DNA of 64,000 bases. Source: Candidatus Obscuribacterales bacterium. GTDB lineage: Bacteria; Cyanobacteriota; Vampirovibrionia; Obscuribacterales; Obscuribacteraceae. Within the stretch, counting starts at the first letter, position 1, and every line of letters starts with the position of its first letter. The position numbers and the translations under genes are program-made. Location: NCBI GenBank assembly GCA_020050685.1, contig JAGVKG010000025.1, positions 1 through 64,000 of the forward strand, given 5' to 3'. Positions 5,517 through 14,979 of this stretch are shown here, in pieces. The notes below the pieces were generated by a model. That model had not been told where the DNA came from and searched no databases. It was given only the letters and a program-made list of their open reading frames with translations.

Positions 5517-5981
5517 ATGGCCAATGACTTCTGGGTATTTCTTTTAGTTCTGGCTCTGCTAACAGGCCTGCAGGGCTGGATTCGCATACCTTATACAATG
5601 CTGATTTCCAACGTCAACGAATGGCAGGAAAAAGAAGAGTTCGACAATGAAAAGCATTGGACTATCGCCAACATTTGTGTGATACCACTGGCTTGGGTAT
5701 TTTTGATCCTCGACTTGTTCGTGATGTTTTGCATGAACGGCTCAGGCGAGCCAAAAATATTTGGCAATTGTCTCTGGATATTTGGCTTGATCATCGGTCT
5801 CTTGCTCGTTGTCCAACTTTGCATCAAGGTGCCATTTCACGAAATCTTTTCTGCATTTTTTCATTGGCAAGGCAATTCCAATTACAAGAAAGACTGGGCA
5901 TGGGAGCTTTTAAACACAATGGCCGTCCCACTTGCGTGGATGTTTGGTCTGATGGAAATTTACGAGCTTTATTTTAAATAG
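5517..5981 (+). CDS. Membrane protein with two-fold internal repeat
   Basis: This 154-residue protein has four predicted membrane segments and no family I recognise. It contains an internal duplication: residues about 22-70 (IRIPY, W, Q, W, IPLAWVF) align with about 103-153 (IKVPF, WQ, W, VPLAWMF). Each half holds a polar loop with conserved tryptophans, then a PLAW-containing helix. GAGG occurs about 15 bases before the ATG, which is a long spacing. The 3' end overlaps the convergent dus gene by eight bases. Confidence 0.7.
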   Translation: MANDFWVFLLVLALLTGLQGWIRIPYTMLISNVNEWQEKEEFDNEKHWTIANICVIPLAWVFLILDLFVMFCMNGSGEPKIFGNCLWIFGLIIGLLLVVQLCIKVPFHEIFSAFFHWQGNSNYKKDWAWELLNTMAVPLAWMFGLMEIYELYFK

Positions 5982-7053
5982 AAATCGACGACATGCTGAG
6001 CGGTGCCATTATTGCTCTGTCGATTGCAATTACATTGGATGTGACTTGCGGCAAGCTTTCTAAAAAGCGAGTTCTGCCTTCAGTGCCACCAACCTCATAT
6101 GCCAATTCGGCAAGAATCTCACAGGCTTCTTCAAAGCTTTGAATTTTTGCCAGGCGCGCGCGAAACGGTGCCGCATTGGGAATTCCCTTGGTGTAATGAC
6201 CTAGATGTTTACGCGATTCATTGGCACCAACGCGTGCGCCCTTATATTTGATCAGACCCAAAATATGCAGAGCGGCACAAACCAGACGTTCCACTTCATC
6301 AGGAGCATCATCGAGAATGCCCTGATCCACAAGTTTCGTAATGCGTGGGATCAGCCAAGGATTTCCCAGAGTGCCACGCGCCACAGCCACGCCATCACAA
6401 CCTGTCTTCTCTAAAAGCTTGAGTGCATCTTGAGGTTCAAAAACATCACCGTTGCCAAAGACAGGAATGGAAAGAGCCTTTTTCACTCGGCCAATATAAT
6501 CCCAATCGGCATGACCGGAATACAGTTGTTGGCGGGTGCGACCATGCACTGTGCAGGCGCTCACACCCTCTTCCTCTAACATGCCACCAAATTCGACGGC
6601 ATTTCTAGAATTGTCATCCCAGCCCAGACGGAATTTGACGGTCAAGGGAATTTTGATTGCTTGCTTGACCTGCTTGACAATCTCGCGTGCCAGTTCCGGC
6701 TCGCGCATCAGGGCGCAACCATCCTTACCCTTAGTAATCTTAGGTACTGGGCAACCCATATTAATGTCAACAAAGTCTGCACCCTTTGATTCTGCCATTT
6801 GAGCAGCCTGGGCCATTACATCCGGCTCGTGCCCAAATATTTGAATGCCAATCGGATGCTCATTTGTGGCCAGGTCCATAATTCTAGGGTCGGGGCGATT
6901 CATCAAGGCCCGGCTTGAGACCATCTCAGTCGAGAGCATGCAATTCTTATCGACGCGCCGGACGACATCGCGAAAAACCAAATCCGTGACGCCGGCCATA
7001 GGCGGCACATAGACACGACTATTCAAAGATAGAGCACCAATGCGTATGGTCAT
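5974..7053 (-). CDS. dus: tRNA-dihydrouridine synthase
   Basis: It reduces uridine to dihydrouridine in tRNA D-loops using FMN and NADPH. The 359-residue protein is a TIM barrel starting with VYVPPMAGVTDLVFR. The Dus signature region DFVDINMGCPVPK carries the catalytic Cys, followed by KGKDGCALMREPEL. FMN contacts follow in PLTVKFRLGWDD, VHGRTRQQLYSG and FGNGDVFEPQDA. It most resembles the DusB-type group. The ATG has GGG five bases upstream. It is a single gene on this strand. Confidence 0.93.
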   Translation of the reverse strand: MTIRIGALSLNSRVYVPPMAGVTDLVFRDVVRRVDKNCMLSTEMVSSRALMNRPDPRIMDLATNEHPIGIQIFGHEPDVMAQAAQMAESKGADFVDINMGCPVPKITKGKDGCALMREPELAREIVKQVKQAIKIPLTVKFRLGWDDNSRNAVEFGGMLEEEGVSACTVHGRTRQQLYSGHADWDYIGRVKKALSIPVFGNGDVFEPQDALKLLEKTGCDGVAVARGTLGNPWLIPRITKLVDQGILDDAPDEVERLVCAALHILGLIKYKGARVGANESRKHLGHYTKGIPNAAPFRARLAKIQSFEEACEILAELAYEVGGTEGRTRFLESLPQVTSNVIAIDRAIMAPLSMSSISI

Positions 7054-7227
7054 AGAAACCCAGTTTACAATATGATCTCGGCAAATACTGACAAATACTC
7101 AAGATTGGCTTAATTTCCCCCTTTTTTACAGGAAATCTGTCATACTTACCGAGGGCTTGAAAAGAAGCACCTCTGAGCCTTTTTATGTTATGTCCTTGGC
7201 TTAGAACACATTGATAAGAGAGACCGA

Positions 7228-7512
7228 ATGAACACAAAATTATTTGTAGGCAACCTGCCTTTTAGAACTACCGAAGCGGAATTGGAACAACTCTTCCGTC
7301 AAGCTGGCGAAGTTGTATCCGTAGCAATTCCAACCGATCGGGAAACTGGTCGTAAACGTGGGTTCGCCTTCGTGGAAATGGCTGACGATGCTCAAGCTGA
7401 TGCTGCATGTAAAGCCTTCAATGGCCATCAGCTCGATGGACGCGAAATCGTCGTCAATCCAGCCAAAGAAAGAACAGTTGGTGCTGGCGGCGGCGGTGGA
7501 CGCGGACGCTAG
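7228..7512 (+). CDS. RRM RNA-binding protein with glycine-rich tail
   Basis: This 94-residue single-RRM protein has RNP2 as LFVGNL (5-10) and RNP1 as RGFAFVEM (about 44-51), and ends in a short GAGGGGGRGR tail. Such proteins are characteristic of cyanobacteria and some other bacteria. Several are cold-inducible and bind mRNA. AGAGAG lies just before the ATG, and a terminator-like hairpin follows at 7546-7579, so it is probably monocistronic. Confidence 0.93.
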   Translation: MNTKLFVGNLPFRTTEAELEQLFRQAGEVVSVAIPTDRETGRKRGFAFVEMADDAQADAACKAFNGHQLDGREIVVNPAKERTVGAGGGGGRGR

Positions 7513-7545
7513 TAAGTCGCAAGACTGACTTTCAGTAACGTAGTT

Positions 7546-7579
7546 GAAGGAGGGTGAGGCACTTGCAGCACCCTCTTTC
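7546..7579 (+). terminator. Terminator-like hairpin after the RRM gene
   Basis: GAAGGAGGGTG (7546-7556) pairs with CACCCTCTTTC (7569-7579), with one G-U pair and a 12-base loop. The downstream bases are ATTTAT, not a clean T-run, so termination may be partial. Its position argues against translation of the ABC gene beginning upstream of 7595. Confidence 0.6.
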
Positions 7580-7594
7580 ATTTATGAAAATCAG

Positions 7595-8413
7595 ATGACC
7601 ACAATTGAGATTTTGCAAATGACATCGTCTCAGAAAAACAATCTCTCCATTCAGCTATCCGGCGTCTCTGCCGGCTATCAGGCTGCGCCCGTGCTCAATA
7701 ACATCAATCTTGTGATTGAGCCAGGTGATTTTGTTGGCGTGATTGGTCCAAATGGTTGTGGAAAGTCTACTTTGCTAAAAGTGATCTTGGGATTGATCAA
7801 ACCAGCATCCGGTCGAGTAACACTTGGTGGAATGACACCAGAAAAAATGCGCCGCAAAGTTGGTTACTTACCGCAGCTCACACAAATCGACTTTAAATTC
7901 CCGGCCTCCGTTTGGGACGTCGTGATGATGGGACGCTACGGTTTGCGTCAGGGATTTTTTGATCAAATCAAACCAATCAACGAAGAAGACAAGAAAGTTA
8001 CTAAGCAGGCCCTCGAACGGGTTGGTTTAGCTAATCTTGCCGACCAGCCAATCGGACAACTTTCCGGCGGGCAGCGCCAGCGGGCCTTTATTGCTCGGGC
8101 AATTGCCCAGGAACCGGAAGTGCTTTTATTGGACGAGCCAATTACCGGCGTCGACATTACCAGTCAACACGCTCTTTTGCATTTGCTGGAAGAATTGAAT
8201 TCACGTGGTATCACAATCATTAGCACCACGCACGATCTAAACTGTGTAGCATCAAGTTTTAATCGTGTCGTTTGCCTAAACCACAAACTGATTGCCGAAG
8301 GTCCACCCAATCAAGTTTTAACCCAAGAAATTCTCAACGAAACATATGGCAGCCACTTGCTGGTCATGACGGAAAGAGGCCCACATATTGAACATAATCT
8401 TTCCTCTCATTAG
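7595..8413 (+). CDS. Metal ABC transporter ATPase (ZnuC/MntB-like)
   Basis: This is the ATP-hydrolysing subunit of a zinc or manganese importer. It has Walker A GPNGCGKST, the signature LSGGQRQR, Walker B VLLLDEP and the switch His in STTHD. I chose ATG 7595 because the upstream in-frame codons lie within a hairpin; ATG 7619, with GAGA eight bases before it, is also possible. The permease follows after 25 bases. The stretch PQLTQIDFKFPASVWDVVMMG resembles ZnuC/MntB proteins. No solute-binding protein gene is adjacent, so the metal cannot be decided. Confidence 0.9.
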   Translation: MTTIEILQMTSSQKNNLSIQLSGVSAGYQAAPVLNNINLVIEPGDFVGVIGPNGCGKSTLLKVILGLIKPASGRVTLGGMTPEKMRRKVGYLPQLTQIDFKFPASVWDVVMMGRYGLRQGFFDQIKPINEEDKKVTKQALERVGLANLADQPIGQLSGGQRQRAFIARAIAQEPEVLLLDEPITGVDITSQHALLHLLEELNSRGITIISTTHDLNCVASSFNRVVCLNHKLIAEGPPNQVLTQEILNETYGSHLLVMTERGPHIEHNLSSH

Positions 8414-8438
8414 ACTGGCACAAGAAAGATACTGACCC

Positions 8439-9359
8439 ATGAACATTTTATTTGACCAAATACTTTTGCCGCTGTTTTCCTTTCTCAGTGAACCCTGGGA
8501 ATTTATTTTCATTCAAAAGGGCATCTTGGCAGTAATTATGGTCGGGCTCTGTTGCTCTCTGATTGGCACGCACGTTGTTCTGCGCAGACTTTCCTTTATT
8601 GGCGACGGCTTGGCTCACTCGACATTTGGCGGATTAGCAGTGGGTTTTCTTTTGCAGATCAATGCCTTTGTTGCCGCTTTAGTCACGGCAGTTCTCACTG
8701 CTTTGGGTATCGGTGCAGTCTCTCGCAAAGCTGATATCAGTTTGGACACATCAATTGGCATTTTATTTAGTGGCATTTTTGCCTTTGGTATTGTGATTAT
8801 CAGCCATGACCGCAACTATCGTGGCGACTTATTTGATTTGCTTTTAGGAAATGTGCTGACGGTCACGACTCAAGATCTTCTGATCACCCTTGCCACCACT
8901 TGCGTGGTGATTGCTTGCTTGGTGATGTTTTTCAAGGAATTGCTTTATTCCAGCTTTGATCCTGCTGGTGCTGCTGCATGCGGCATTCCAGTTGCTTGGC
9001 TGGATTTTGCTTTGCTTGTACTTTTGGCACTGACGATTACAGTTTCTATGCAAACCGTGGGCGTGGTTTTAGTCTCTGCTCTCTTGGTTACACCGGCTGC
9101 TTCTGCCTTGCAGCTCACCAATCGCTTTTCTAATTTGATGATTTTATCGGGCACATTTGGTATTGCTTCCGGTTTGATTGGTATTTACCTTTCTTACTAC
9201 ATGGATGTGCCGGCTGGTGCTGCCATCGTTTTGGTGGCCACGACAATCTTTTTTATATGTTTGTTGGCCAGTCCAAAACGCCGTCCTGTCAAGGTGACAG
9301 AACCTTTGGAAGAACCACCAGCACAAATAATCACTGGTGATTATCACCGAATTGGTTAA
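8439..9359 (+). CDS. Metal ABC transporter permease (ZnuB/MntC-like)
   Basis: This 306-residue ABC-3 family membrane subunit has about eight hydrophobic segments. Near the N-terminus, HVVLRRLSFIGDGLAHSTFGGLA is the typical ABC-3 motif region, and VGVVLVSALLVTPAA is another conserved helix. It forms a two-gene operon with the upstream ATPase. The missing periplasmic binding subunit may lie elsewhere in the genome. Zn or Mn is likely from family knowledge. Confidence 0.9.
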   Translation: MNILFDQILLPLFSFLSEPWEFIFIQKGILAVIMVGLCCSLIGTHVVLRRLSFIGDGLAHSTFGGLAVGFLLQINAFVAALVTAVLTALGIGAVSRKADISLDTSIGILFSGIFAFGIVIISHDRNYRGDLFDLLLGNVLTVTTQDLLITLATTCVVIACLVMFFKELLYSSFDPAGAAACGIPVAWLDFALLVLLALTITVSMQTVGVVLVSALLVTPAASALQLTNRFSNLMILSGTFGIASGLIGIYLSYYMDVPAGAAIVLVATTIFFICLLASPKRRPVKVTEPLEEPPAQIITGDYHRIG

Positions 9360-9386
9360 GGCAAAGTGGATAGTTAGTGGAGCATT

Positions 9387-10049
9387 ATGGTTTTGGATAA
9401 TCTTTCCCCGAAAACAAATTCCGCAACCAGAAAGACTTATCCTGCGCTTTACCTTGTCATTTTTGTTTTGCTCAGTCTTTTTGTCTTGATTGCCGTAAGC
9501 GTAATTACAAGAAGCATAATCACAGTCTATGATCAAGAAATCATCGTCAATGTTCACGAGCATCTGATTGCCTGGCTTACACCAATGGTTATGGCGATTA
9601 CCTCAATTGGCAATGCTGGCTCAGCCTGGATCATCAGCATACTAATTGCCATTGTCATTTTTTGTCTGGGCAAGAAGAAAGAATCATACTTTGTCGTGTT
9701 TTCCACGGCTGGCGCGGCAACTCTAATGAACCTGATCAAAGCTTACGTCCATCGCCCGCGCCCAGAGCTTCTCAACCCATTATTTATCGAGCCCGGCTTC
9801 AGCTTCCCCTCCGGTCATGCTCTCGTTTCAACCTGCCTCTATGGCTCTCTGGCAATTTTGATCTGGAAACAAAAATGGCCGCTAAAACTGCGAGTCGCCC
9901 TTTGCACAATCATCGCGATCATGATTTTGTTAGTCGGACTGAGTCGAGTATATCTTGGTGTACACTATCCCTCGGACGTACTAGCCGGCTTTATCCTGGG
10001 ACTTGCCTGGCTGGGTATCTGTCTAATTGTCTACCGCATGATTGACTAA
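9387..10049 (+). CDS. PAP2-family membrane phosphatase
   Basis: The 220-residue protein has about six membrane segments and the full acid phosphatase signature. The three motifs are K118-x6-R125-P126, PSGH at 141-144 and SR(186-187)-x5-H193-x3-D197. Relatives dephosphorylate undecaprenyl diphosphate or phosphatidate. The substrate here is undetermined. GGAG lies just before the ATG. It follows the metal-transport permease by 27 bases and could be cotranscribed with it. Confidence 0.9.
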   Translation: MVLDNLSPKTNSATRKTYPALYLVIFVLLSLFVLIAVSVITRSIITVYDQEIIVNVHEHLIAWLTPMVMAITSIGNAGSAWIISILIAIVIFCLGKKKESYFVVFSTAGAATLMNLIKAYVHRPRPELLNPLFIEPGFSFPSGHALVSTCLYGSLAILIWKQKWPLKLRVALCTIIAIMILLVGLSRVYLGVHYPSDVLAGFILGLAWLGICLIVYRMID

Positions 10050-10053
10050 GCTG

Positions 10054-10308
10054 CTAAAGCACTGATAATGATCTGATTTCACAAGTGAGAGCAATGCACC
10101 AAGCGAGAGCTATAATCAGTCCGAATAACATGCTGGAATTCCAAATTAGATTTGTCAACAGTTTCGACTCCAAGACCTTTCTTTCAATTATCGTTTCCTC
10201 TGCTTCCGCTAATCTCTTGTTGCCGCAGATAAGGGCATTTATTTCCCGAGCGAGGAATTCGGTAATCTTGGCGAACTCTAATGTCATATCAGGGCGGCTG
10301 TTATTCAA
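10054..10308 (-). CDS. Small coiled-coil/membrane hypothetical protein
   Basis: I support this 84-residue frame because its TTG start has a good AGGTG five bases upstream. Residues about 12-52 are charged and helix-prone (LAREINALI, RLAEAEETIIERKVLESK), followed by one membrane segment (about 54-76, NLIWNSSMLFGLIIALAWCIAL). I know no family. It is convergent with the PAP2 gene (4-base gap). Confidence 0.5.
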   Translation of the reverse strand: MNNSRPDMTLEFAKITEFLAREINALICGNKRLAEAEETIIERKVLESKLLTNLIWNSSMLFGLIIALAWCIALTCEIRSLSVL

Positions 10309-10411
10309 TTGTTCACCTGAGTTTTAATACTTTCGTGAGGATGACTCAATTCTACTTGCTAGCCTTCACTCATGTGATCAACCAAGCAATATATGACACA
10401 GCGCATATAAT

Positions 10412-11560
10412 TCACTGCAAATCAAACCTCCCATCCCACAATTGGTCAAGAAAGCTTTCCACGGGCAGAATTCTGATACCATCAGCAGTTACGCGCTCCA
10501 CTGATTCGTTACTTACGACAATGCGATGTTTTAGTTTCATCTCTTTATTGAGCGCCCTGAGTGGTGCCAAGTCGCTATCCCTTACGCGCTCCGCAGCTTT
10601 CACCTCAATTGCCACTGATTTGCCTGCGACAAAATCGACTTCAAGATTGGTGTATGTTCGCCAATAACTCAATTTGCTTTTGAGCCTGTTATAGTCCAAA
10701 TACGTTTGCAACTCAAGAAAAATGAGATGTTCTAAGGCCTTTCCGTACTCCGCTGTCCGAGGTGGTATATTAAAACGCCCGTGCAGAGCATTTACAACAC
10801 CAACGTCGAAGAAGTAGAACTTTGGCGTGCTAACCACTTTTCGGCTTTGTTGTAATCGCAAAGGTGGAATCAAGGTACCTATCAACGTATCGCTCAGCAC
10901 TTCATAATAACTTTGAACAGTCCGTGGCGACACCTGGGCGTCGGATCCAACTTTTGAAAAATTCAGCACCTGTCCATTAGTAAGAGCAGCAACTTCTAGA
11001 AAACGCGAAAAGCTAGCAATATTGCGAGCTATTCCTTCCGCTTGGATTTCTTCCTGAAGGTAGGTGCCAGCGTATGTGAGAAGTAGTTCTTCTGGAATCT
11101 CAGAAAGATATATCGCTGGAAGGGAGCCATAGGACAGCCGACGATTTAAATCATGAGTAACAAATTCGGGGTAAACCAGCGGATGCATTTTGCATAGAAC
11201 GGCTCTTCCGCCGAGGAGGTTAGCACGTCCGCGCATCAGCTTGCGGGCGCTGCTTCCGGTCAGAATGAATCTCTGCTGTCTATTTTGATCGATGAGGTAC
11301 TGTATCTCATCGAGAAGTGCTGGAAGTTTTTGTACTTCGTCTACTATTATCAGCCGATCTGTAGTCTTAAGACCCTGGCGCAAGTCCTCAGGATGAGCAC
11401 TGAACTGACGGAATAGCCTTTGGTCCAATAGATTGTAATACTTTGCGTCTGGATAGGCCTGCTTAAGGAACGTTGTCTTGCCGGTTTGGCGTGGACCAAA
11501 CAAAAACAAGGAACTGTGCCTAAGCAATCTATCAAGTTGAAGTAATCGAGTAAATTGCAT
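10412..11560 (-). CDS. AAA ATPase with DUF4143 domain
   Basis: The 382-residue protein belongs to the large family of predicted ATP-binding proteins with an AAA_14 core and a C-terminal DUF4143 domain. Walker A is GPRQTGKT (22-29), Walker B is LIIVDEVQ (about 70-77), and sensor-1 is ILTGSSARKL. The C-terminal part contains EVDFVAGKSVAIEVKA, which resembles the PD-(D/E)XK nuclease fold. The family is very patchily distributed and has no settled function. The gene diverges from a toxin-antitoxin pair, and its promoter predicts a leaderless mRNA, unlike most neighbours here. Confidence 0.9.
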   Translation of the reverse strand: MQFTRLLQLDRLLRHSSLFLFGPRQTGKTTFLKQAYPDAKYYNLLDQRLFRQFSAHPEDLRQGLKTTDRLIIVDEVQKLPALLDEIQYLIDQNRQQRFILTGSSARKLMRGRANLLGGRAVLCKMHPLVYPEFVTHDLNRRLSYGSLPAIYLSEIPEELLLTYAGTYLQEEIQAEGIARNIASFSRFLEVAALTNGQVLNFSKVGSDAQVSPRTVQSYYEVLSDTLIGTLIPPLRLQQSRKVVSTPKFYFFDVGVVNALHGRFNIPPRTAEYGKALEHLIFLELQTYLDYNRLKSKLSYWRTYTNLEVDFVAGKSVAIEVKAAERVRDSDLAPLRALNKEMKLKHRIVVSNESVERVTADGIRILPVESFLDQLWDGRFDLQ

Positions 11561-11566
11561 ATTAAA

Positions 11567-11595
11567 ATATTAGCATCTCTATTGCGGATTTTCAA
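11567..11595 (-). promoter_or_regulatory. Predicted leaderless promoter of the DUF4143 ATPase gene
   Basis: On the minus strand TTGAAA (11595-11590) and TAATAT (11572-11567) are 17 bases apart. The ATG begins six bases after the -10 box, at the expected transcription start. No Shine-Dalgarno is present, so the mRNA is predicted to be leaderless. Confidence 0.6.
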
Positions 11596-11645
11596 TCAAT
11601 ATTCGCATCAGAAGTGCCAATGCTGGAAAGGGCACCAAAGGTTCT

Positions 11646-11674
11646 TTGCCATGTATGCACTTTTTGTATATAAT
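11646..11674 (+). promoter_or_regulatory. Predicted leaderless promoter of the antitoxin gene
   Basis: TTGCCA (11646-11651) and TATAAT (11669-11674) are 17 bases apart, matching five and six of six consensus positions. The antitoxin ATG at 11681 coincides with the expected start of transcription and has no ribosome binding site. Confidence 0.75.
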
Positions 11675-11682
11675 GCATACAT
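11651..11682 (+). promoter_or_regulatory. Inverted-repeat operator candidate
   Basis: ATGTATGCA (11651-11659) and TGCATACAT (11674-11682) are perfect complements separated by 14 bases. They flank the spacer and -10 of the antitoxin promoter. The placement is typical of operators bound by ribbon-helix-helix antitoxins alone or with their toxins. Binding is inferred. Confidence 0.65.
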
Positions 11683-11950
11683 GAAGAGCAAACATACTAT
11701 AAAAGCGGTACAAGTTACCATCCGAAACGTTCCTCAGCAGGTTAAGAAGCTGCTGAGCGACAGAGCAGCCTCGGACGGCAAAAGTCTGAATACCGTACTT
11801 GTGGAAGCACTCAGCCTGGCTGCCGGCGTCTCTCCGTGGACAGCCAATCATACTGACCTCGATGAGCTCGCTGGAAGCTGGGTTGATGATCCTGATTTTG
11901 ATAATGTCATACGAGAACAGCACCAAATTGACGAAGAAATGTGGCGATGA
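11681..11950 (+). CDS. Ribbon-helix-helix antitoxin (FitA/VapB-like)
   Basis: This 89-residue antitoxin would neutralise the downstream PIN-domain toxin and repress their promoter. Its N-terminal ribbon-helix-helix part (about 8-45) includes QVTIRNVPQQVKKLL, GKSLN and TVLVEALSLA. The C-terminal acidic tail DLDELAGSWVDDPDFD probably wraps the toxin. ATG 11681 is chosen because the protein fold begins there; upstream frame sequence is non-coding and contains the promoter. The stop codon overlaps the toxin ATG as ATGA. The gene seems to be translated from a leaderless message. Confidence 0.88.
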   Translation: MKSKHTIKAVQVTIRNVPQQVKKLLSDRAASDGKSLNTVLVEALSLAAGVSPWTANHTDLDELAGSWVDDPDFDNVIREQHQIDEEMWR

Positions 11951-12336
11951 GGATAACCCTCGACACCAATTGCTATGTAGATTTTGCCAAAGGCGACAAG
12001 GCCGCCGTCGAAGCCTTTCGACGCGCACAGGAAATTTTTGTCCCTTTAATTGTACTAGCGGAACTTCGCGCTGGCTTTCTTCATGGTACTCGCGGGCCGG
12101 AAAATGAACGGTCCCTAGTTAAATTTCTGAACTCACCGCGTGTTTCCGTGCTGTATCCGGACGAAGATACTACTCACCATTACGCTCGCATATTCCTACA
12201 ACTCCGTCGCCAAGGAACACCCATTCCAACCAATGATTTGTGGATTGCAGCACTGGTAATCCAGCACAAACTAATTCTTTGCGCACGCGACCGACACTTT
12301 GACCATCTCCCGCAAATACCAATGTTCAATATGTAG
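11947..12336 (+). CDS. PIN-domain ribonuclease toxin (VapC-like)
   Basis: VapC toxins cut tRNA or rRNA when freed from their antitoxin. The 129-residue protein keeps the acidic PIN residues: Asp6 in LDTN, Glu39 in VLAELRAG, Asp97 in TNDLWIAA, and Asp115/Asp119 near the end. ATG 11947 overlaps the antitoxin stop (ATGA), which implies translational coupling; a GTG two codons earlier is less likely. The closest general resemblance is to FitB/VapC PIN toxins. It ends nine bases before the convergent clpB stop. Confidence 0.92.
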   Translation: MRITLDTNCYVDFAKGDKAAVEAFRRAQEIFVPLIVLAELRAGFLHGTRGPENERSLVKFLNSPRVSVLYPDEDTTHHYARIFLQLRRQGTPIPTNDLWIAALVIQHKLILCARDRHFDHLPQIPMFNM

Positions 12337-12345
12337 TGACGTGAC

Positions 12346-14979
12346 TTAGCGAGTTACTAACTTGATGTCCTTTTTAAAGGCAATGCCTTCGCCGTTGCTG
12401 TCAATTTTGATCTCGTCACCGTCGGCAAACTTGCCTTCGAGAATTTGCAATGCCAGAGGATTTTCAATTTCACGTTGAATCACACGCTTGAGTGGGCGTG
12501 CACCATAAACGGGATTGTAGCCAGTCATGGCTATCCACTCACGGGCGGGCTCAGTTACAGAGAGCTTAATTTTGCGATCGGCAAGGCGCTTGTTGAGCAA
12601 GTGCAATTGCAAGTCGACAATTTGCTTGAGCTCGTTTTGTGTCAAAGCGTGGAAAACCACTGTCTCATCAATACGATTGAGGAATTCCGGCCGGAAGTGT
12701 TCTCTCAGTGCTTCTAAGACACGTTCCTTCATTTGAATGTAGGTCGCGTCGCCATCGACAGCCGAGCGAACTTGGTAATCGAGAATATACTGACTGCCAA
12801 TATTCGAAGTCATAATGATCACGGTATTACGGAAATCGACACGCCTACCTTTAGCATCGGTCAAATGTCCTTCATCTAAGACTTGTAAGAGCACATTGAA
12901 AACATCCGGATGGGCCTTTTCAATTTCGTCGAACAAAACGCAAGTGTATGCACGACGCCTGACAGCTTCAGTCAGTTGTCCACCCTCGTCATAACCAATG
13001 TAGCCGGGCGGTGCACCGAGTAAGCGCGCCACTGTGTGTCTTTCTTGGTATTCAGACATATCGATGCGTACCATTGCCTGCTCATCGTCAAAAAGATACT
13101 CGGCCAAGGCTTTAGCTAGTTCGGTTTTACCAACACCAGTTGGTCCCAAGAACAAGAAGCTACCAATTGGTCTTTTCGGATCTTGCATACCAGCACGAGC
13201 ACGGCGCACCGCATTTGATATCACTTCAATTGCTTCGTCCTGACCGATAACCCGCTTGTGCAAATGATCTTCCAGTTTGAGGAGCTTTTGTACTTCGCCT
13301 TCCATTAATTTGGTCACCGGAATACCGGTCCATTTGGAAACAATTTCGGCAATATCTTCTTCATTAACCTCTTCCGAAAGCAGTCTGGGGCCTTTCTTTT
13401 GATTGAAGACTTCTTCTTCCTTCTTGAGTTTCTTTTCCAGCTCAATTAGTGTGCCGTATTTCAACTCTGCTGCCTTGGCCAAATCTGTCGCACGTTCTGC
13501 TTGTTCAATCTGAACACGAGTAGTTTCCATGTCCGCCTTGATTTCTTGAATGCGATGCAAGGCTTGCTTTTCCGAATTCCAACGATCGCGCAGGACACTA
13601 GCGTGCTCTTCAATGTCAGCTAATTCTTTCTCCAGACGAACCAGCCGTTCCTTGGACGCCGGATCAACTTCCTTACGCAGCGCTTCTCTTTCAATTTCTA
13701 ATTGCATCTTACGACGCTCAAGCTCATCAAGCTCTGATGGCATAGAATCAATTTCTATGCGCATCTTAGCTGCCGATTCATCAATAAGATCGATTGCTTT
13801 ATCGGGCAAACAACGATCAGTTATATAACGATGAGAAAGGACAGCCGCGGAAACCAAAGCCGAATCTTTAATACGCACACCATGGTGTACTTCATAGCGT
13901 TCTTTCAGTCCACGCAGAATTGAAATCGCATCTTCTACGTTTGGTTCGTCAACGAAAACCGTTTGGAATCGACGTTCCAATGCCGGATCTTTTTCAATGT
14001 GCTTGCGATATTCATCAAGAGTTGTGGCACCAATACAATGCAACTCACCACGAGCTAACGGTGGTTTGAGCAAATTACCAGCATCCATTGATCCATCGCC
14101 GGACGCGCCGGCACCAACCACTGTATGCAATTCATCAATGAACAATACTATCTGACCGGCTGCATCAATAACTTCTTTCAAAACTGCTTTCAAGCGTTCT
14201 TCAAATTCTCCGCGGAATTTAGCACCGGCAATTAACGATCCCATATCCAAAGCAATTATCTTCTTATCCTTCAGACCTTCCGGCACATCACCTTTGGTGA
14301 TTCTGATTGCCAATCCTTCAACAATTGCCGTTTTACCAACGCCAGGCTCACCAACCAAGACAGGATTATTTTTTGTCCGGCGTGAAAGAACTTGCATCAC
14401 GCGACGAATTTCCTCATCGCGGCCAATCACCGGATCCAACTTTCCGTTTGCAGCAGCAGCAGTCAAATCACGTCCGTAACGTGTGAGAGCCTCGTAAGTT
14501 GCTTCCGGATCTTGGCTTGTCACCTTTTGGCTACCGCGAATTTGTGTCAGTGCCTTGAGAATCTTTTCTTTAGTCACACCCGCTTGTTTAAGAATCAATC
14601 CTGCTTGGTCCTTGGTGTCTTCAGCCAAGGCAATAAGAATATGTTCGATAGAAATATATTGATCTTTGAGTGCTTCGGCTTCCTTTGCGGCCACATCAAG
14701 CACGTGCACCAATTTGGTTGAAACATGAATTTCATCCTTGGAGGAGCTAACCGAGCTTGTCTTTGGTTGCGACTGCAAATATCTCTCAACAGAGGCAAAA
14801 ATTGGTGCAACTTTGATTCCCATTTTTTCTAAAATTCGTTCTGCCAAACCCTCCGGTTGAGTAAGCACAGACAAAAGCAAATGTTCGGGCGTAACTTGTG
14901 GCTGGCCAAAGTCGGCAATAATCGCGCGGCAGTTTGTAATTGCCTCTTGGGCTTTGTTAGTGAACTTGTCGAGATTCAT
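12346..14979 (-). CDS. clpB: ClpB disaggregase
   Basis: ClpB is the hexameric AAA+ chaperone that threads proteins out of aggregates together with DnaK. The 877-residue protein has the N-domain ([14 protein letters not shown]), two AAA+ modules with Walker A GEPGVGKT and GPTGVGKT, and the coiled-coil middle domain (about 410-530). The Clp signature [13 protein letters not shown] also appears. ATG 14979 is preferred over a frame extending 21 codons further, because GAAGGGAAACC precedes it and the family starts there. I looked for a CIRCE element upstream and found none. Confidence 0.96.

Follow-up and report, generated by a model that had tools for sequence, protein, structure and literature searches.

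Genes and candidate promoters at the locus

The window, which is the whole stretch of 64,000 nucleotides analyzed here, contains a DUF4143 ATPase gene and a toxin-antitoxin operon that diverge from an intergenic region of 120 bp. The features of this locus are listed below.

10412..11560, minus strand: DUF4143/AAA_14 ATPase gene (382 aa; PADLOC candidate PDC-S01), ATG at 11560-11558, with full-length homologues
11567..11595, minus strand: ATPase promoter, TTGAAA-17-TAATAT, 6 nt to the ATG, TGC preceding the -10 box; the spacing recurs in homologues
11566..11577, minus strand: proximal direct-repeat copy GATGCTAATATT, overlapping the -10 box, 11/12 identical to the distal copy, found once in the genome
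11598..11609, minus strand: distal direct-repeat copy GATGCGAATATT, 32 bp away, equal to three helical turns
11646..11674, plus strand: promoter of the antitoxin-toxin operon, TTGCCA-17-TATAAT, then 6 nt and the ATG; TATAAT-6-ATG is invariant in the four closest homologues
11650..11659, plus strand: CATGTATGCA, left arm of a candidate operator, a perfect inverted repeat with arms of 10 bp
11674..11683, plus strand: TGCATACATG, right arm of this candidate operator, containing the antitoxin start codon
11681..11950, plus strand: ribbon-helix-helix (RHH) antitoxin gene, FitA-like, 89 aa (Pfam PF22513, 27.9 bits, cut-off 27), with homologues
11947..12336, plus strand: PIN-domain toxin gene, VapC/FitB-like, 129 aa (Pfam PIN PF01850, 60.4 bits), overlapping the antitoxin gene by ATGA

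In Pfam, the ATPase scores 86 bits for AAA_14 and 98 bits for DUF4143, above the cut-off in both cases, and it matches the PADLOC PDC-S01 model with an E value of 1e-58. A C-terminal motif of the PD-(D/E)XK type was assigned by eye from the EVDF...IEVK that is conserved among the aligned sequences and from the pattern of strands in the predicted structure. In this structure, an AAA domain, a winged-helix-like segment and a nuclease-like alpha/beta domain were likewise recognized by eye, in this order. A sequence search of the PDB with the ATPase gave no match, and the Foldseek matches were all of a generic AAA+ kind, with low TM-scores. Two distant viral carriers of the ATPase were found and none of the antitoxin. 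The toxin-antitoxin genes correspond to a type II system of the FitAB/VapBC kind, with a FitA-type RHH antitoxin and a PIN-domain toxin encoded by an overlapping second gene, which is kept downstream of the antitoxin gene in the four closest homologous loci (L003-L006).

The original prediction described, for both divergent genes, a -35 box, a 17-base spacer, a -10 box and an ATG six bases further on, without a Shine-Dalgarno (SD) site. These coordinates were confirmed on both strands: the minus-strand boxes lie at 11595-11590 (TTGAAA) and 11572-11567 (TAATAT, an extended -10 with TGC) ahead of the ATPase ATG, and the plus-strand boxes at 11646-11651 (TTGCCA) and 11669-11674 (TATAAT) ahead of the antitoxin ATG at 11681-11683, and no SD motif precedes either start codon. 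The antitoxin promoter matches the consensus at 11/12 bases. The ATPase promoter matches at 9/12 and, taken alone, scores no better than shuffled sequences. The statement that most neighboring genes use good SD sites was somewhat overstated, as an SD-like motif was found at the first ATG of 314 of the 680 genes examined in the same genome (46%).

Two features went beyond this prediction. The ATPase promoter carries a 12-bp direct repeat, GATGC(G/T)AATATT, with a spacing of 32 bp and its inner copy overlapping the -10 box, and the antitoxin promoter carries the perfect 10-bp inverted repeat CATGTATGCA-N14-TGCATACATG, which brackets the -10 box and includes the ATG. The direct-repeat candidate operator is unique in its own genome, and the inverted-repeat pair likewise occurs there only once.

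Conservation of the antitoxin start

Five homologues of the antitoxin were compared, all from other genera, the four closest belonging to relatives of the same family. TATAAT-6-ATG is identical in 4/4 of these closest homologues (54-69% identity), and the fifth (39% identity) has CATACT-6-ATG, while the DNA around this element differs and the upstream sequence is otherwise unrelated. The antitoxin could formally start at an in-frame ATG at 11651, which has AAAGG 9 nt upstream; this longer start was ruled out by an in-frame TAG between both positions in L003, and 11681 is therefore the conserved start. Since the -10 box and its distance of 6 nt from the ATG are kept in five homologues although the flanking DNA differs, and since the stop codon in L003 fixes the start, there is strong comparative support for the prediction that the antitoxin mRNA is leaderless. 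The more distant paralogues (L002, L008-L011) have a leader of about 30 nt and a different palindrome, TGCCTTCA..TGAAGGCA.

The same observations bear on the alternative that transcripts begin further upstream with leaders that have a weak SD site or none, that the antitoxin may be translated from ATG 11651, and that the boxes are chance matches in AT-rich DNA. Such DNA does yield chance promoters, as the region holds nine promoter-like sites when 7.3 are expected from shuffles, and ATG 11651 is indeed in frame. However, TATAAT and the 6-nt spacing form the conserved core of upstream regions that otherwise share nothing, and the TAG in L003 excludes the longer antitoxin, so that we regard an upstream start as improbable.

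The surroundings of the homologous loci vary. In L004 and L005, a MazF/PemK-like toxin gene and a small RHH-like antitoxin gene immediately precede the vapBC homologue, giving two toxin-antitoxin pairs in tandem. At L062/L007 (G041, contig 11), the antitoxin homologue has no toxin gene behind it and is followed by a bioF-like gene; its -10 box is degenerate (CATACT), with the 6-nt spacing kept.

The inverted repeat over the antitoxin promoter is a palindromic candidate operator, as judged from its sequence. In the homologue L006 both arms are replaced together, by GTGCCTACA and TGTAGGCAT. Across the five sequences behind the shuffle test, a small number, the arms pair at 32 of 50 positions, compared with no more than 30 for wrong assignments of the arms; in L004 the pairing is shifted by one base.

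Leaderless-type spacing in the genome and in the DUF4143 family

Few genes of this genome have leaderless-type spacing: within about 1.17 Mb, 4/680 genes have a -10 box matching at least 5/6 bases at exactly 6 nt upstream of the first ATG, and 46% of the genes have an SD-like motif there. Four relatives (G057, G074, G076 and G089; L166-L185) present a different picture: an SD-like site was found in only 24% of their genes, and in approximately 14% a -10 box lies 6-8 nt upstream of the first ATG. Leaderless starts thus seem to be common in these four genomes, unlike in that of the window.

DUF4143 genes stand out from this background. A -10 box (at least 4/6) at a gap of 6-7 precedes 10 of 25 DUF4143 genes of the same family; among control genes it is 15 of 717 (p 6e-10). 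Such spacing is generally commoner in other families of the class, and the counts there are 26 of 55 for DUF4143 genes and 34 of 265 for controls (p 6e-8). This loose threshold was chosen after the TAATAT of the window had been seen; a strict threshold gives an enrichment as well, and a strict -10 box at gap 6 is present in 22/86 DUF4143 promoters. The prediction of leaderless mRNAs for both genes accordingly fared unequally: it is borne out for the antitoxin by the spacing conserved in five homologues, and for the ATPase it gains statistical support through the gene family, whereas the promoter of the ATPase itself argues for it only weakly.

Repeats in DUF4143 promoters

The repeat pattern was suggested by a first set of 30 DUF4143 loci and was then tested on 60 additional promoters, 50 of them non-redundant. 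Direct repeats at 31-32 bp were found in 12 of these 50 independent promoters compared with 9 of 939 controls (p 1.5e-11), and 0.6 would be expected from shuffles; roughly three in four DUF4143 promoters show no clear direct repeat of this spacing. Inverted repeats (score of at least 10) occur in 33/86 promoters compared with about one in shuffled sequences. The repeats differ between paralogues of one genome. At L157, L158, L164 and L227, near-perfect inverted repeats of 23-24 bp lie just upstream of the DUF4143 start codons, and at L164 a repeat arm holds the -10 box itself.

We also included 26 plasmid-borne DUF4143 homologues from other phyla (Proteobacteria, Bacteroidota, Deinococcota). 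Many of them have repeats of the same kind, and some have SD sites or no repeat. A first clade stems mostly from plasmids of alphaproteobacteria, with a single member each from beta- and gammaproteobacteria. A period of 22 bp, corresponding to two helical turns, was found in 7/8 of its promoters, and repeats at 44 bp also in 7/8, while other distances occurred in none or one. A second clade comprises three genes of the genome studied here and plasmid genes of Bosea, Roseovarius, Pseudooceanicola, Nitrosomonas, Thermus, Meiothermus and Runella, which are 43-66% identical to the former. Most promoters of this clade have an inverted repeat, often CCTTGCAA..TTGCAAGG, that ends at most about two bases from the ATG. 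A search with the exact operator pattern CCTTGCAA..TTGCAAGGTATG, which is too strict, gave no match in 386 genomes of the phylum and viral contigs. In the promoters compared, the type of repeat goes with the protein subfamily and not with the host.

Together with the predicted order of AAA, winged-helix-like and nuclease-like domains, this distribution suggests that the DUF4143 protein may recognize its own promoter. The repeats could instead be read by a host regulator, or be the ends or target sites of mobile elements, which would be in line with the mobility of DUF4143 genes and their frequent location beside recombinases or transposases on plasmids. Nevertheless, the repeats lie over the -10 box and the start codon, they are private and differ between paralogues within a single genome, and across phyla their type goes along with the protein subfamily, something not expected if a host regulator read them. 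We therefore judge this second explanation unlikely, although it deserves more weight than an upstream transcription start. For the family as a whole, we see an even chance that the DUF4143/PDC-S01 ATPases are self-specific DNA-binding proteins, each with a private repeat over its own, often leaderless promoter, and that the repeat moves with the gene between phyla. The candidate repeats would be phased direct repeats of 31-32 bp or 22 bp, or an inverted repeat.

Genomic neighborhood of the two genes

The original prediction linked the ATPase and the VapBC-like pair as one module and proposed a search for the same arrangement and promoter spacing in related genomes. The spacing does recur, in the five antitoxin homologues and in the DUF4143 family, but the arrangement is not kept. 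The antitoxin homologues have as neighbors a MazF-like pair (L004, L005), a GntR-like gene (L006, L007) or unrelated genes (L003), and the ATPase in 0/5 cases. Conversely, no close VapB or VapC neighbor was found for the ATPase homologues examined; the single exception is a distant VapC next to another ATPase encoded in this genome. Because adjacency is not kept in relatives, a shared module of ATPase and toxin-antitoxin genes was rejected.

A single functional module with a shared bidirectional control region would agree with the divergent arrangement of the genes at 120 bp, with the proximity of 4 of the 12 DUF4143 genes of this genome to one of its 25 PIN genes, and with a second DUF4143 gene that is divergent to another VapBC pair (L194, contig 13, approximately 34.7-36.6 kb). 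The antitoxin of that second pair, however, is of the AbrB type, has an SD site and is unrelated to the FitA-like antitoxin. Moreover, no DUF4143 homologue adjoins the antitoxin in the five relatives, and the two candidate operators of the window are unlike in sequence and type. A common module is consequently the least credible of the explanations considered, and we think it very improbable.

Contig 13 contains four DUF4143 genes and many PIN genes and is likely a defence/toxin-antitoxin island, so that clustering in islands suffices to explain their proximity. As for an insertion of these genes as one unit, none of the 29 relatives checked has the ATPase and toxin-antitoxin genes next to clpB, but the clpB neighborhood itself is not conserved, so that their absence there carries no weight. 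In the relative G038, the dihydrouridine synthase gene (5974-7053 in the window) directly adjoins clpB, which identifies the region that separates the two in the window (7053-12346), including the ATPase and toxin-antitoxin genes, as a variable segment.

Proposed regulation and relation to known systems

We favor, with some confidence, the interpretation that the 120-bp region holds two independent leaderless and self-repressed promoters, read by the antitoxin and the DUF4143 protein, respectively. Genes, promoter spacing, repeats, conservation and enrichment are what the sequences show, and 5' ends, protein binding and repression are inferred, as follows. Both transcripts would begin at the ATG or within about one base of it. 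The FitA-like RHH antitoxin, alone or with the PIN toxin, would bind the inverted repeat across the -10 box and the start codon and block RNA polymerase, keeping the leaderless antitoxin-toxin mRNA low until the antitoxin falls. The ATPase, in turn, would bind its own repeat GATGCKAATATT, whose two copies, 32 bp apart, lie on one face of the helix and overlap the -10 box, and would thereby limit its own leaderless mRNA. The genes would adjoin because both belong to a mobile stock of defence and toxin-antitoxin genes, and not because they form one machine.

Leaderless toxin-antitoxin operons are already known. Among the M. tuberculosis toxin-antitoxin pairs that have a primary start site, 32 of 37 are leaderless (Cortes et al., 2013; PMC3898074), and in this species a leaderless reporter was more stress-stable (PMC8485053). 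The operon described here likewise has its -10 box just a few bases ahead of the ATG and lacks an SD site, but it belongs to another lineage, in which such spacing is rare in ordinary genes, and its leaderless start is predicted. Continued synthesis of its antitoxin under stress, as suggested in the original prediction, is a hypothesis. It also resembles the autoregulated FitAB/VapBC systems of type II in its FitA-like RHH antitoxin, overlapping PIN toxin gene and inverted-repeat operator over the promoter, with the difference that the candidate operator covers the start codon of a putatively leaderless mRNA.

PDC-S01 is reported to rank fourth in abundance among the defence (candidate) genes of prokaryotes and to be without experimental validation so far (PMC12988326). 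It is an ATPase encoded by a single gene and fused to a domain of the PD-(D/E)XK type, which agrees with the gene studied here and its PADLOC match; the private repeated operator and the leaderless start are what we propose in addition. In the literature on DUF4143, COG1373 and PDC-S01 we found no description of regulation or promoter architecture, and this architecture is therefore, as far as our search extended, described nowhere.

On the antitoxin side, our analysis provides a comparative-genomics case for leaderless antitoxin mRNAs beyond mycobacteria. We consider the repeated-operator architecture of the DUF4143/PDC-S01 family the most valuable outcome. If its members do bind private promoter repeats, the family would gain a testable DNA target and sequence specificity, and its regulatory logic would resemble that of toxin-antitoxin operons.
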